Below the pieces are notes generated by a model, which was given only the letters and a program-made list of their open reading frames with translations, searched no databases and was not told the DNA's origin. Positions 48,829 through 55,609 of a DNA stretch of 64,000 bases are shown piece after piece. The stretch comes from Apilactobacillus bombintestini. Its GTDB lineage: Bacteria > Bacillota > Bacilli > Lactobacillales > Lactobacillaceae. The stretch is taken from NCBI RefSeq assembly GCF_003627035.1, contig NZ_CP032626.1, forward strand, positions 558,001-622,000. The letters run 5' to 3'. Position numbers and translations under genes: made by a program. Every line of letters begins with the position of its first letter. Positions within the stretch are counted from its first letter, which is position 1.

Positions 48829-48917
48829 TGTATCCATATTAATTACTTTCTGAGTATTAAATTTATGTTAAAAAAAGCATAATGTTTTGTAATACCAATT
48901 AAAAATACCTTTATTAA

Positions 48918-48926
48918 TGCTATAAT
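48918..48926 (+). promoter_or_regulatory. Extended -10 promoter of the large wall-polymer gene
   Basis: TGC-TATAAT (TATAAT 48921-48926) is an ideal extended -10. The -35 region is weak. It starts a leader of about 75 bases that ends in AAGGAGG (48994-49000). Confidence 0.6.
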
Positions 48927-49007
48927 TAAACCAGTATATCTATATATTAATAATAAAATTAAATTAAATACTTTTTTATTTACAACAATAAATAAGGAGG
49001 ATAAAAA

Positions 49008-52000
49008 ATGACAGAACCATATTTGTCTGTAATAGTGGCTTGTTACAACGAACAAGATTATGTTGAACAATGCTTGGATTCTATTGCAAATACTAATTTT
49101 CCTTTAGAAAATATGGAAGTCTTAATGGTTGATGATGATTCAACTGATGAAACTTCTGCAATAATTGATAAGTATGCTGAAAAATATAAATGTTTTAGAG
49201 CATTACATAAAACAAACGGTGGGATTAGTTCTACTAGAAATTATGGGATGAAACATGCTAGAGGTAAGTATATTGCCTTTGTTGATGGCGATGATATTGT
49301 TCCTAGTGATGCTTATTCAAATTTAATTTATAAAGCACGTAAAAATCAATCAGATGTAGTAGCTGGCTTTGTTAAGAGATTTGATAAGGATCGTTATGAA
49401 AATTCATTCTTACATTCATTTGCTATTCATGATGATTATGATGATACTAACCTAGACGATAATCATGATTTACTTTACGATACTACAGTTTGGAATAAGA
49501 TTTATCGTCGTCAATTCTTAGTTGAAAATAATATTAAATTTATTGAAGGGATGATTTATGAAGATATTCCATTTACTTTGGAAGTTCATTTAAAATCCAA
49601 GAAAACTTCAATTATTGAAAATGTAGTTTATGAATGGAGATGGAGAGAAAGTACTGATTCCATCACACAAACTAGAAATGCTTTAGATAATTTCGAAAGT
49701 CGTTTAAAGGCATTAAAGATTAGTTTGGATATGTTACATAAATTTGGATATTCAGATCAAAGTAGTTTAGTTAAAGACTTTAAGTTCAAAGCCATTCGAC
49801 TAGATATTAATTTGTTTATTGAGAATTTAGGAGACAACGAAGAAGAATATATTTACTCCGTTCAAAGATTGGTTTACAAATTCCTTCGTGATTGGAATTT
49901 ATGGGATTCAGAACTATTTAATAAACTATCCTTGAAACAACAAACCATGTATTATGGCATTAAAAAATCCAACTATGATTTAATTAATCAATTCACTTAT
50001 AGAAAAACTATTGGTATTTTTAAATCAAGTTGGCGTGGTCATAAGTACAGCTTCATAACTCCAGAGCTAGAAGACGATTTTGGCCTAAAGAAGTTTTTAA
50101 CTTTAGATCAAAATAATTCTCCTATTGATCAAATAATAAGAAATGTTAATGTAACATCTATTACTGATGGTCAATTTGAAATGCGTGGAGCTTTTAAGAT
50201 GCATGAAATGCCATTATTCAAACGTTGGTTTAAAGATGGCAATGTTAATGAAGTTCTAAAAGCAAGCATAATAAATGTAAAGAACGATAAAGTTATACCA
50301 GCTAACATTGAAAGACGTGGAACTCATCTTTTAAGAAAAATCATGAAGCCTAAAGCCATGTATAAGGATGCTAGTTACAATTTATCTTTTGATATAAATA
50401 AAGCCATTAGAAAATTAGGTGCTGGTACCTGGAAAATTAAAATAATCGACAAAATGGATAATCAATATTGGGTTGAAGATTTTGCTGCATTACCAGGTAA
50501 GAAAGCCTCAAACAAGAAATTTATACCTTATGAAAATAATGGATATAAAGTAATCACTAAATTTAATGGTATTGATCAATTAGTATTTAATGTCATCAAA
50601 TTAGATTCACAAGTGGTAGAAACTCCCGTAGTTGAATCACCACGAGTAGTAAAAGACAGTGTTTACTTTGAAGTTAAAAATGCTGATATATCTAATTTAA
50701 ATGCTGTATTAGTAGATGCTGATGATAATGCCATTTATTCTGAAGAAAATGCGGATAATGGTTTCAAATTTGAAATAAGTAAAATACATGAATTGTTTTT
50801 AAATAAAAAAGCATCATTGATTTTACGTGACAATTTAACTAATGCTCATATTAAATACAATTTCTCATCTGAAAAATTAAATCAACAAGTAAATCTTCCT
50901 AATAACTGTTCATTATCCATGTACTATGGTGATACTAGAATGGTTATGTTATATGAAAGAACTCCACTTACTGCTAAGAGCATCACTGTAACAGGTGACA
51001 ATGTTCTTCATTTTGAAGCTGACATGCATAATTTTGTTAATGACGCAGATGTGTTAATGAAGAACAGTAGGGTTGAAATGATTAGCGAAGATAAAAAGAA
51101 TCGCTTAGTTTTAGATTCAGATGCTAATAATTTAAGCTTAGATAATGATGTTCTTTCATTTAAGTTACCATTAACTGATGAAAATAAAGAACAACTTAAT
51201 GTATTAAAAGGTAATTATGAATTTAAAGTATATTTATACGTTGTAGATCATATTAATGTTTACCGTATTAAGTACACTAAGAATTGTTTAACTAGTGAAG
51301 TTAAATTACCAGTAACTAATAAACAAAAAATTTATTATAAATTTAATAAAGATAAGTCACATAATATTGTTTTGAATATAAAACAACCATTTAGTAGCTG
51401 GATTGATTCTACTAAGGGATTGAGATCATTCTCATACTCTGTTTTATATCCTATTATGCGTTTCTTGCCTTTAAGAAATATTATGATTTTTGATTCATAT
51501 TGGTCCAGTAAGTATGACAGTAACGAAAGACTTATGTATGAATATTTAGTTGAAAATCATCCGGAAGTTAAACCAGTTTGGTTCTTTAACAACATTCAAA
51601 CTCCTATTGAAGGGGACGCTAAAAAGGTTAAAGTTAATAGTTTTATGTACTGGTATTATTTAGCAGTATCTAGATATATTGTACAAAATACTAATATGCC
51701 AAACCGTTATGCTAAAAGAAGCGGTCAAATTGAAGTAGAAACTTTACATGGTACTTTCTTAAAGCACATGGGTTATGATGAACCTCACTTCAGATTAGCA
51801 ACTAAGAAAATTCAAAATCGTTTTGCTAAACGTAATCGTCGTTGGGATTACATGGTAGTTCCTTCAGATTATATGGAAAAGACAGCATCTCAAGCATTTA
51901 ATTATGAGCAACAAATAATTAAGTCTGGTTTCCCTAGAAATGATGAATTATACACTAATGATAATAGTGCGTACATTAATTCTGTTAAGGAAAAGTTGGG

Positions 52001-54038
52001 CATCCCATTAAACAAACGAGTTATTTTGTACGCTCCTACTTATCGTGAAGAAGAAGGATTTGACTTTAAATTAAATCTAGATAAGATGCAAGATAAACTT
52101 TCTGATAGTTATGTCTTGTTAGTTCGTCTTCATTACTTTGTAGCTCATTCTAATAGTTTTTACAGTAATCCTGGATTTGTGTTTGATGTAAGTGACTATA
52201 ACAACATTAATGATTTGTATCTAATTAGTGATGCAATGGTTACTGATTATTCTTCAGTGATGTTTGATTATGCCCACTTGAAACGTCCAATGATTTTCTA
52301 TGCTTACGATAAGGATTGGTATTTAGATGAGGATAATCGTGGTGTTTACCTTGATTATGACAAGCAAATGCCAGGACCTATTGTTAAAAATGAAGATGAT
52401 TTGATAGATAGAATCAGACATTTGGATGCTGTTTACGATAACTATTCAGATAAATTAAACCAATTTGCTGATGAGTTTGCTCAATATGGTCGTAAAGGGG
52501 ATGCTACTGCACAAGTTGTAGAAACAGTCCTAAACACTGATGTAGATGAATTAGATCAAGAACCTGATAATAAATTATTGTTTAAGAAGATTGGTCATAT
52601 TCTAAATACCAACTTCCTACAAGCAATGATTTTAAACTGGTTGTCTGAAGTATTACCAAAGAAAGATAATCTAATTATGTTTGAAAGTTTCTTTGGTAGA
52701 CAATATTCAGATAATCCTAAAGCTATATATGAATACATTAAAAAGCATTATCCAGGTTATAAATTATGCTGGAACGTAAATAAAGATTATAAAGAATACT
52801 TTGATGAAAATAATATTCCTTATGTTATTCGTTTTAGCTATCTAGGAATTTGGAAACAAGCCAGAGCTAAGTACTGGATTACTAACTGTAGAAGACCATT
52901 CAGATGGAAGCCTGGTAGAAATGTTCGAATGCTACAAACATGGCATGGAACACCATTAAAGACATTGGCTGCCGATGTTATGAAAGTTACAATGCCTGGT
53001 GTTAATGCAACTATGTATCATAAGGATGTATTCCGCGATAACAAACGTTGGGATTGTTTAATTACTCCTAACATGTATTCTGCAAAGATAATGCATAGAG
53101 CATTCAGAATGAATGCAAATCAATTGCAATTTGATGGATATCCAAGAAATGATATATTAATTAATCATACTGAAGATGATGTAAAGAGAATTAAAAACAA
53201 TTTAGGTATTGATAGTAATAAGAAAGTTGTTTTGTATGCACCAACTTGGCGTGATAATGAATATATTAAGACTAGTGAATATACAGCACAGTTACATTTA
53301 GATTTAGAAAAGATAAAACAACATTATGACAATGTAATTGTATTAGTTAGAACTCACTACATGATTTCTAATCAATTAGACTTAAGTGCTTATTCAGATA
53401 TGGCTATGGATGTTAGTCAATATGAAGACATCGCTGAATTATATTTAATTAGTGATGTATTGATTACTGATTATTCTTCAGTTATGTTTGATTATGCAAC
53501 ATTACAAAGACCAATTATCTTCTTTACTTACGATTTGGATGCATATGCAAATGAAATTAGAGGATTCTACTTTGACTTTGTTAAAGAAGCACCAGGTCCA
53601 CTAGTAAAAACCACAGATGACGTTATAAAGGAATTAGATAAGGCATTTGAAGACGATTGGAAACCAAACGATAATTATCGTAAATTTATTGATAAGTACG
53701 CTGGCTGGATGGATGGAAAATCATCAGCTAGAACAGTTAAGAAATTGTTTAGTTCACATAGTTTAGAAATGTCTTACAGTGATGACTTAGAAAAACTAGG
53801 TTTATCTGAAGAGATGACAATTGCTGATGGGGCTGCTTTGTGGAATGAAGATAAAGATTTTGCAGACAGTTCAGATAGAAACTTCGCCTTTAACTTTGAT
53901 GGAGATAATCAAGTAGTTAAGGTAGAAAAGGTAATGCAATTAGCTGATCCTGAATTTGAAGAAAGAATTGGAATGCAATTTGCCTTAATTCAATTGAATA
54001 ATGATCATTATTGGGTAAGAATTAATGATTTAAGATAG
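49008..54038 (+). CDS. Trifunctional-looking glycosyltransferase / double CDP-glycerol glycerophosphotransferase
   Basis: This 1,676-residue protein joins several modules. Residues 1-235 are a family-2 glycosyltransferase with DDDST (from Asp42) and VDGDD (Asp93-Asp96). Residues 236-820 form a long strand-rich linker. Residues 820-1175 are a TagF-like glycerophosphotransferase with LHGTFLK (His914), APTYREE and TDYSS (1079-1083). Residues 1215-1585 are a second TagF-like module with WHGTPLK (His1313), APTWRDNE and TDYSS (1487-1491). About 1600-1676 resembles an SH3-like domain ending YWVRINDL. All three active sites look intact. No signal peptide or transmembrane helix is evident, so it should act at the inner membrane face on teichoic-acid-type polymers. 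It stands alone with its own promoter and terminator. The polymer made is inferred. Confidence 0.88.
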   Translation: MTEPYLSVIVACYNEQDYVEQCLDSIANTNFPLENMEVLMVDDDSTDETSAIIDKYAEKYKCFRALHKTNGGISSTRNYGMKHARGKYIAFVDGDDIVPSDAYSNLIYKARKNQSDVVAGFVKRFDKDRYENSFLHSFAIHDDYDDTNLDDNHDLLYDTTVWNKIYRRQFLVENNIKFIEGMIYEDIPFTLEVHLKSKKTSIIENVVYEWRWRESTDSITQTRNALDNFESRLKALKISLDMLHKFGYSDQSSLVKDFKFKAIRLDINLFIENLGDNEEEYIYSVQRLVYKFLRDWNLWDSELFNKLSLKQQTMYYGIKKSNYDLINQFTYRKTIGIFKSSWRGHKYSFITPELEDDFGLKKFLTLDQNNSPIDQIIRNVNVTSITDGQFEMRGAFKMHEMPLFKRWFKDGNVNEVLKASIINVKNDKVIPANIERRGTHLLRKIMKPKAMYKDASYNLSFDINKAIRKLGAGTWKIKIIDKMDNQYWVEDFAALPGKKASNKKFIPYENNGYKVITKFNGIDQLVFNVIKLDSQVVETPVVESPRVVKDSVYFEVKNADISNLNAVLVDADDNAIYSEENADNGFKFEISKIHELFLNKKASLILRDNLTNAHIKYNFSSEKLNQQVNLPNNCSLSMYYGDTRMVMLYERTPLTAKSITVTGDNVLHFEADMHNFVNDADVLMKNSRVEMISEDKKNRLVLDSDANNLSLDNDVLSFKLPLTDENKEQLNVLKGNYEFKVYLYVVDHINVYRIKYTKNCLTSEVKLPVTNKQKIYYKFNKDKSHNIVLNIKQPFSSWIDSTKGLRSFSYSVLYPIMRFLPLRNIMIFDSYWSSKYDSNERLMYEYLVENHPEVKPVWFFNNIQTPIEGDAKKVKVNSFMYWYYLAVSRYIVQNTNMPNRYAKRSGQIEVETLHGTFLKHMGYDEPHFRLATKKIQNRFAKRNRRWDYMVVPSDYMEKTASQAFNYEQQIIKSGFPRNDELYTNDNSAYINSVKEKLGIPLNKRVILYAPTYREEEGFDFKLNLDKMQDKLSDSYVLLVRLHYFVAHSNSFYSNPGFVFDVSDYNNINDLYLISDAMVTDYSSVMFDYAHLKRPMIFYAYDKDWYLDEDNRGVYLDYDKQMPGPIVKNEDDLIDRIRHLDAVYDNYSDKLNQFADEFAQYGRKGDATAQVVETVLNTDVDELDQEPDNKLLFKKIGHILNTNFLQAMILNWLSEVLPKKDNLIMFESFFGRQYSDNPKAIYEYIKKHYPGYKLCWNVNKDYKEYFDENNIPYVIRFSYLGIWKQARAKYWITNCRRPFRWKPGRNVRMLQTWHGTPLKTLAADVMKVTMPGVNATMYHKDVFRDNKRWDCLITPNMYSAKIMHRAFRMNANQLQFDGYPRNDILINHTEDDVKRIKNNLGIDSNKKVVLYAPTWRDNEYIKTSEYTAQLHLDLEKIKQHYDNVIVLVRTHYMISNQLDLSAYSDMAMDVSQYEDIAELYLISDVLITDYSSVMFDYATLQRPIIFFTYDLDAYANEIRGFYFDFVKEAPGPLVKTTDDVIKELDKAFEDDWKPNDNYRKFIDKYAGWMDGKSSARTVKKLFSSHSLEMSYSDDLEKLGLSEEMTIADGAALWNEDKDFADSSDRNFAFNFDGDNQVVKVEKVMQLADPEFEERIGMQFALIQLNNDHYWVRINDLR

Positions 54039-54045
54039 AAAAAGA

Positions 54046-54076
54046 AGCTGGTTATTTTATAACCAGCTCTTTTTTT
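54046..54076 (+). terminator. Terminator of the large wall-polymer gene
   Basis: AGCTGGTTAT (54046-54055) / ATAACCAGCT (54059-54068) is followed by a T run. Confidence 0.9.
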
Positions 54077-54375: not shown

Positions 54376-55116
54376 ATGCAAAATGGTGCAAATGTAAAAA
54401 AGACCAAAAGAACTATCTCATGGACTAGTGCGATTATTTATTTTGTAATCTCTCTAATCATTAACTCCCTAGGTAATGTATTAACTTTAGTAACAAGTGC
54501 TAAAATTCATCCTGCATTCCTAGGATCAGCTTACTGGACTGCTGCTGAAAATAACCTTGGATATGCCGTATTAGGCGATGGAAAATGGGTATTATTCTGG
54601 GCCTTCTTCGGACTAGGAATGCTTATCACCGTTTTAAACTCTATTTTAGTTGGAAAATGGAGCTGGTCTAGAGTTATCGGTAACGCAGCTTTCTTAGGAC
54701 CTTTCTCATTATTGATCAACTACTTTAATGGAATTGTTACTAACTGGTTACCAGATGCAAAAGGAACAGTAATGGTAGTATTATATGTCCTATTAAACTT
54801 CGTAGGTGTATCATTTATTGCCATCGCAATTTCTATTTACCAACGTGTAAATATTGCACTACATCCTGCTGATGATTTGATGCAAATTCTTAGATTTAAG
54901 TACTGTAAAGGTAATGCCGCAACAGCAATGTGGTTCTCATACATTCCACCAACTATTATGGCAATTATTGCTATTATTATTACTCATGAATTTAACAACT
55001 TCGGAATTGGAACAATCTTCGCTTTCTTATTCCAAGGTGGAATTACTGGACTAGCTGATAGACATATCTTTAAATCATTGAAACATCAAGCTATTGACGT
55101 TGGTTCAGTAAAATAA
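54376..55116 (+). CDS. Polytopic membrane protein, YczE/YitT-like
   Basis: This 246-residue integral membrane protein has about five transmembrane helices (around residues 20-42, 70-95, 105-125, 138-160 and 195-230) and an N-terminus rich in Lys and Thr. It resembles the YczE/YyaS/YitT group of uncharacterised membrane proteins of Firmicutes; HPADDLMQILRFKY is a striking cytoplasmic or loop motif. The transported substrate, if any, is unknown. GTAAGGAG precedes the ATG. It is monocistronic, with a long leader and a candidate cre site, suggesting carbon-source control. Confidence 0.75.
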   Translation: MQNGANVKKTKRTISWTSAIIYFVISLIINSLGNVLTLVTSAKIHPAFLGSAYWTAAENNLGYAVLGDGKWVLFWAFFGLGMLITVLNSILVGKWSWSRVIGNAAFLGPFSLLINYFNGIVTNWLPDAKGTVMVVLYVLLNFVGVSFIAIAISIYQRVNIALHPADDLMQILRFKYCKGNAATAMWFSYIPPTIMAIIAIIITHEFNNFGIGTIFAFLFQGGITGLADRHIFKSLKHQAIDVGSVK

Positions 55117-55220: not shown

Positions 55221-55291
55221 TTAAGTAGAATGATTTTATGGACAGAGTAAGGTATAATGAGATATTTAAAAGAATCGGAGGTGTTGAATCA

Positions 55292-55609
55292 ATGTTAGAT
55301 AGAACTAAAAGATTTTTAAGGGATAATGGTTACTATTATAAGAAAACATATATTAGACCACTTTTAGCTCCCGATAATGTTTACGTATTTAGATTTGGAA
55401 AAAAACGCTTAGACAACCGGTTAATTATTAGATACGGTCATAAATGGACTGGAAGACAAAAAATAAATGAAATTGATTTAAGACTTCACAAACAAAAACA
55501 TCCTAGAATATTTAAGGATGAAAATTCATTGTTGCTATACTTAGAAAGTCACTTGCACGAACACGAAGAAAAGTTAGAGCAATTAAGGCAACAAAAAAAG
55601 TCTAAATAG
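55292..55609 (+). CDS. Small basic protein of unknown function upstream of prmA
   Basis: I do not recognise this gene. It encodes a 105-residue basic, tyrosine- and arginine-rich protein (LRDNGYYYKKTYIRPLLAPDN in parts) with a mixed strand and helix pattern and a C-terminal helix rich in Glu, Gln and Lys. The ATG at 55292 is 8 bases after CGGAGGTG (55276-55283). An in-frame ATG at 55238 would extend it by 18 residues but has no ribosome binding site, and the extension would encode the Shine-Dalgarno as RIGGVE. Its own promoter and terminator suggest a separate unit from prmA. Confidence 0.7.
   Translation: MLDRTKRFLRDNGYYYKKTYIRPLLAPDNVYVFRFGKKRLDNRLIIRYGHKWTGRQKINEIDLRLHKQKHPRIFKDENSLLLYLESHLHEHEEKLEQLRQQKKSK

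Follow-up and report, generated by a model that had tools for sequence, protein, structure and literature searches.

In model Gram-positive bacteria, the polymerisation and glycosylation of wall teichoic acid (WTA) are performed by separate proteins. Among the closest described systems, TagF2 of Lactiplantibacillus pentosus has 1,675 residues and is encoded in a tagD-tagF1-tagF2 locus; its length and WTA type were given, but not its domain order (PMC12090711). In L. plantarum WCFS1, deletion of tagF1-tagF2 abolishes glycerol WTA, and this 941-aa TagF2, jointly with TagF1, is the only form for which we found mutant data (PMC3511166); here too, the published description covers length and WTA type and does not give the GT2-TagF-TagF order. 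The L. plantarum glycerol WTA examined contains alpha-linked glucose in its glycerol-phosphate backbone (PMC9396385). Gram-negative capsule GT-A/TagF fusions transfer sugar and glycerol phosphate alternately, with beta linkages (PMC5974469), and the activity of Bcs3 depends on a polymer-binding SH3b domain at its C-terminus (PMC10299916).

The present analysis concerns a window of 64,000 nucleotides (558001-622000) in the single-contig genome of Apilactobacillus bombintestini (1.289 Mb). An ORF on the + strand starts with ATG, forms one intact open frame and encodes a 1,676-aa protein with a family-2 glycosyltransferase (GT2) domain and two TagF-like modules (GP1 and GP2). The original prediction regarded this system as possibly undescribed. 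This no longer applies to the long protein as such, which is known from several related bacteria, has generic names in database entries and is called TagF2 in one paper (PMC12090711). However, its GT2-TagF-TagF make-up and its product seem undescribed, as neither appears in any paper that we found. Searches of the open-access literature yielded no description of a double-TagF fusion with an RmlT/TarS-like part; the literature searched also yielded no biochemistry of this protein or any close homologue and no account of Apilactobacillus WTA. On re-checking, the predicted coordinates of the ORF and its motifs were exact, and the features are as follows.

48899..48926, + strand: promoter-like site TTAAAA-16-TATAAT with TG, -10 at 48921-48926; unproven
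48995..49000, + strand: ribosome-binding site AGGAGG, 7 bases before the ATG
49008..54038, + strand: whole gene, long TagF2 type, GT2/TagF-like/TagF-like protein of 1,676 aa
49008..49997, + strand: residues 1-330, GT-A fold, family-2 glycosyltransferase with helical extension, TarP/TarS/RmlT-like
49284..49292, + strand: GT2 DxD motif D93-G-D95
50115..50942, + strand: residues 370-645, beta-sandwich domains like the RmlT/TarS C-terminal part (fold match)
50961..51377, + strand: residues 652-790, beta domain preceding module 1, aligned with the TarL N-terminal part (fold match)
51405..52541, + strand: residues 800-1178, TagF-like module GP1 (H914, H1042, TDYSS 1079)
51747..51749, + strand: codon H914 of GP1, equivalent of TagF H444
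52131..52133, + strand: codon H1042 of GP1, equivalent of the second catalytic His of TagF
52575..53762, + strand: residues 1190-1585, TagF-like module GP2 (H1313, H1450, TDYSS 1487), TarF/TagF1-related
52944..52946, + strand: codon H1313, aligned with TagF H444, the position mutated in 3l7j
53355..53357, + strand: codon H1450, aligned with the His mutated to Ala in 3l7m
53766..54035, + strand: residues 1587-1676, small C-terminal beta domain, possibly SH3-like (pLDDT mostly 85-94)
54046..54076, + strand: intrinsic terminator, 10-pair stem and T run; clear

The gene had been assigned its own promoter and terminator. The terminator is clear from its hairpin and T run; however, the promoter is unproven because promoter-like matches in the region were fewer than in shuffled sequence. 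A sequencing error or chance ORF was ruled out by the intact gene in 15 of 16 genomes of the genus. A DUF6198-like membrane protein (54376-55116; match below the cut-off) is encoded 3' of the gene and is followed by a 123-aa protein (55238-55609), an order retained across the genus and in Philodulcilactobacillus.

Pfam matched Glycos_transf_2 (PF00535) at residues 7-170 (E 1e-34) and Glyphos_transf (PF04464) twice, in two stretches (E 2.6e-211; 701.6 bits in total, cut-off 22.1). Together with the ORF, these matches bear out the prediction of GT2 and two complete TagF-like modules in one chain. The GT2 catalytic residues are present (DxD, D93 and D95; ED, E185 and D186), and the HGT-LK histidines (914 and 1313), TDYSS (1079 and 1487) and APTYRE/APTWRD are exactly as predicted. 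Neither module lacks a catalytic histidine: GP1 has H914/H1042, and GP2 has H1313/H1450. The two modules are 33% identical, and the histidines of GP1 fall on the positions of those of GP2. With motifs intact in one chain and conserved across genera, all three sites look active, as originally proposed. In a phmmer search of the PDB, GP2 aligned with Staphylococcus epidermidis TagF over 411 residues (E 1.8e-98 for the whole sequence). The best NCBIfam match of both modules was TarF. However, the modules alone scored 286.8 and 390.5 bits against the TarF equivalog (NF041712; threshold 550 bits), and the whole-chain score of 658 bits is the sum of the two modules; therefore, the protein is not filed as TarF. 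The TarL equivalog (NF041713; threshold 1000 bits) gave 207 bits, and the resemblance to TarL is one of fold only. The TarS C-terminal domain profile PF18674 did not match residues 231-801, and the C-terminal tail had no significant Pfam or PDB sequence match, so that sequence searches did not confirm the proposed SH3-like nature.

Two AlphaFold models were built from 16-sequence alignments: model 1 covers residues 1-1185 (pLDDT 78.5, pTM 0.63), and model 2 covers residues 786-1676 (pLDDT 79.8, pTM 0.58). In model 1, residues 3-530/640 matched RmlT/TarS (Z ~30, 440-448 aligned, rmsd ~9-11), with the RmlT match extending over 448 residues (model 3-532, up to 642). The GT-A part matched TarP (Z 29.8, 305 aligned, rmsd 3.8) and TarS 1-349 (Z 30.6, 338 aligned), while residues 652-1176 matched TarL (8va1; Z 26.5, rmsd 12.6) and residues 796-1181 matched TagF (Z ~30.6). 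The rmsd values above 9 for RmlT, TarS and TarL indicate that the domains are flexed. Since the VIA-align list for model 1 was dominated by the GT-A domain, missing other folds are uninformative there. In model 2, GP1 matched TagF with Z 41.7 (rmsd 2.6-3.5 over 375-381 residues); the Cps3D row and many GT-B proteins match the region that contains GP2, and the alignment of GP2 with TagF is by sequence. Thus, the models suggest a chain of RmlT/TarS-like, TarL-like and TarF-like parts with a small beta tail. The predicted N-terminal half combines the features of a WTA glycosyltransferase, namely a GT-A fold with following beta domains and the DxD and ED residues. The tail was modelled confidently as a small beta domain and, by analogy with the Bcs3 SH3b domain, may bind the polymer and be needed for activity.

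The gene had been described as standing alone, with no linked CDP-glycerol supply gene or exporter. This is correct inside the window only. At ~624.0-627.3 kb, which is 2 kb outside the window, there is a tagB-tagG-tagF cluster, separated from the gene by 12 kb in the downstream direction. In relatives, the gene is next to tag genes; the claim of isolation is therefore withdrawn. In this cluster, genes for a 395-aa TagB-like and a 407-aa TarF/TagF1-like protein flank the TagG permease gene. Genome-wide, Glyphos_transf modules occur in only three genes, the 1,676-aa gene (two modules) and these two, and the 1,676-aa protein is the sole multi-module glycerophosphotransferase. Candidates elsewhere are tagD (479173), tagA (1057574), tagO (1009592; a second PF00953 match at 518603 may be mraY) and tagH (963248; 303 bits, slightly below the cut-off of 320). 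An isolated system without WTA genes is ruled out by these searches. No TarI gene above the cut-off was found in the genome; therefore, CDP-ribitol is unlikely and a ribitol polymer is disfavoured.

An orthologue is present in 16/16 Apilactobacillus genomes. In A. micheneri (G009; L056 8001-13033), the gene is split by a frameshift into 1,443 + 269 aa, which represents a pseudogene or a sequencing error. The intact long version occurs in ~33/398 Lactobacillaceae genomes from six genera, and the others had a TagF-type match only or none at the strict threshold used. The carriers include Apilactobacillus spp., Philodulcilactobacillus myokoensis, Pediococcus parvulus, P. damnosus, P. cellicola and P. 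pentosaceus, Lactiplantibacillus modestisalitolerans and one L. plantarum strain, and, outside the family, Sporolactobacillus spathodeae. The domain order GT2-TagF-TagF is the same in Apilactobacillus, Pediococcus, Lactiplantibacillus, Philodulcilactobacillus and Sporolactobacillus, whereas the actinobacterial matches listed have GT2 and a single TagF module.

In G064, the gene order is hisS-aspS-X-tagB-tagG-tagF, in which X is the gene for the long protein. X adjoins tagG and tagH in Pediococcus and forms tagD1-tagF1-X in Lactiplantibacillus. The case for a function in WTA is made most strongly by these three separate contexts, in each of which X directly adjoins WTA genes. In Apilactobacillus, X is flanked by lepA and the DUF6198/prmA genes, and tagBGF follows 12-18 kb downstream in the same direction. 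The order GT2-MID-GP1-GP2 is found within tag loci in L. plantarum EGD-AQ4 and L. modestisalitolerans, whereas a distance of 12 kb makes the linkage looser in the window genome. Immediately upstream of X, A. ozensis, A. xinyiensis and Philodulcilactobacillus carry a second GT2-TagF gene of 744-767 aa (L049 6918-9158; L048 3558-5792; L045 6882-9185), which is absent from the window genome. L. plantarum tag loci (L060 14656-17949; L154 13851-17189) also contain a neighbour of 1,097-1,112 aa with TarS_C1 and two TagF-like modules; the 1,097-aa form matches PF18674 (3.5e-15), and this neighbour is probably the 1,092-residue TagF2 of PMC12090711.

Since the three active sites are intact and show conservation between genera, and since the protein is linked to WTA genes, polymerisation and glycosylation in one polypeptide is the best reading. 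We propose that the protein is a putative WTA polymerase with a built-in glycosyltransferase, with a probability of approximately 0.7. From the domain order, conserved motifs, predicted folds, linkage to tag genes and separate pathway genes in the genome, we infer its substrates, step order, processivity, the placement of the sugar in a side chain or the backbone, and the division of labour between the modules. TagO, TagA and TagB would make the primed lipid-linked linkage unit, and the 407-aa TarF-like TagF may start the chain with one or more glycerol phosphates. Extension from CDP-glycerol would follow, via one or both TagF-like modules of the large protein. During growth, its RmlT/TarS-like N-terminal half would transfer a sugar from a nucleotide-sugar donor with inversion (beta linkage), and this sugar is more likely to be a side group than part of the backbone. 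Polymer binding or the joining of subunits is a probable role of the beta-rich parts, and TagGH would export the product. The original prediction had one enzyme prime, extend and decorate the polymer. Extension and decoration agree with our reading; however, the protein need not prime because there is a separate TagB and there are TagO and TagA candidates. The pathway is complete without priming by this protein, for which polymerase is a natural role to propose. Some findings argue against this assignment: the 407-aa TagF could itself be the polymerase, the models derive from only 16 sequences with rmsd above 9 for RmlT and TarL, and two of the three sites are dead in one genus, g28.

In the three g28 orthologues (L131, L133, L134; genes at L145 8786-13849, L146 8793-13868 and L147 8750-13813), the GT2 DxD reads DSR, and GP1 lacks both histidines and the TDYSS serine(s); GP2, in contrast, remains intact and is conserved better than any other part. 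Every other full-length orthologue checked retained the catalytic residues, and in one further row Ser replaces the Thr of GP1 TDYSS. Thus, not all sites are needed everywhere. The g28 genes always adjoin a gene for a 765-769-aa GT2-TagF protein and one for a 302-313-aa protein, for which the one tested had no Pfam match. The joint loss hints, at the level of sequence, that GT2 and GP1 may serve one step and GP2 another. We speculate, with considerable doubt, that three working sites in one Gram-positive polypeptide assemble a glycosylated WTA repeat that needs two distinct phosphate transfers, with GT2 and GP1 paired on one step and GP2 on the other.

The history of the modules was examined in a tree of 34 modules. 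GP1 formed one clade across all genera (support 100/99), as did GP2 (97/92), with congruent species orders, and GP2 grouped with stand-alone TagF1/TarF proteins (99/97). An AU test rejected the grouping of GP1 with GP2 (p 0.0047), and the internal duplication suggested originally is not tenable. The inclusion of the four longest branches gave a similar but less stable picture. These results indicate that two already different modules were joined before the genera split or that the whole gene later spread among genera. The mobilizable Pediococcus damnosus plasmid pL21532-3 (L141, 30 kb) carries a related gene that spans 92% of the query and is annotated in its first part only.

The most serious alternative, which we nevertheless consider rather unlikely, is that the sugar enters the backbone: the enzyme would make poly(glycosyl-glycerol phosphate) by alternating transfer, and its two TagF modules would use different acceptors, sugar and glycerol. 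The Gram-negative capsule fusions work in this manner with beta linkages (PMC5974469), and sugar is found in the L. plantarum WTA backbone (PMC9396385). The alpha linkage of that backbone glucose counts against our own reading, since an inverting GT2 should give a beta linkage. The joint loss of GT2 and GP1 in g28 is as expected for a one-step pair. In contrast, the resemblance of the N-terminal half to the side-chain enzymes RmlT/TarS extends to its beta domains, and known capsule polymerases manage with a single TagF module. It appears improbable that only one TagF module is catalytic in practice while the other serves as a scaffold or acceptor-binding domain. The g28 chain, which is kept with a degenerate GT2 and GP1, is consistent with this; however, the other intact orthologues checked all keep both histidines of both modules, GP1 equals GP2 in conservation (mean identity 61.7 vs 60.8%), and the GT2-TagF gene adjoining the g28 genes may compensate. 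A second, non-WTA glycopolymer (capsule-like or an exopolysaccharide), with WTA made by tagB-tagF407, is very doubtful: the full tag set lies apart from the gene and fragments and relatives occur on plasmids, as in P. damnosus, but the gene is joined directly to tagB-tagG-tagF, tagGH or tagD1-tagF1 in several genera, adjoins no other exporter or polymerisation gene within the window and is conserved throughout Apilactobacillus.

If the polymerase-glycosyltransferase reading is correct, the fusion would link decoration directly to chain elongation. With RmlT/TarS-, TarL- and TarF-like parts fused in a conserved chain, the coupling of the two steps would become directly testable in harmless food and bee bacteria, and the fusion would explain how some lactobacilli and pediococci make complex WTA from few genes. 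Genus g28, with two of three sites dead together, offers a natural comparison for assigning the modules.

The protein shares its TagF-like fold, both catalytic histidines and motifs with TagF of S. epidermidis (3l7i) and TarF/TarL of S. aureus. However, these proteins have one TagF module each and no intact RmlT/TarS-like half, although S. epidermidis TagF also has a weak GT2-like N-terminal region; moreover, TarL uses CDP-ribitol, the supply of which is unlikely in this host. The GT-A fold is shared with Listeria monocytogenes RmlT and S. aureus TarS/TarP, and RmlT and TarS also have beta domains after it (Z ~30 over residues 3-530 or more); in contrast, these enzymes are 17-20% identical to the 1,676-aa protein and stand alone, unfused to a polymerase. 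Gram-negative capsule polymerases (PMC5974469) and Bcs3 (PMC10299916) similarly join a glycosyl- or ribosyltransferase to a TagF-like module in one chain, but have one such module, other accessory domains and a capsule on another lipid anchor. Lactiplantibacillus TagF2 has the same length class and locus type, as in the 1,678-aa orthologue in tagD1-tagF1-X of L. plantarum EGD-AQ4 (L060), whereas the window gene lies 12 kb from tagBGF and the WCFS1 form is shorter. From its length and locus, we infer that the 1,675-aa L. pentosus TagF2 has the same domains.
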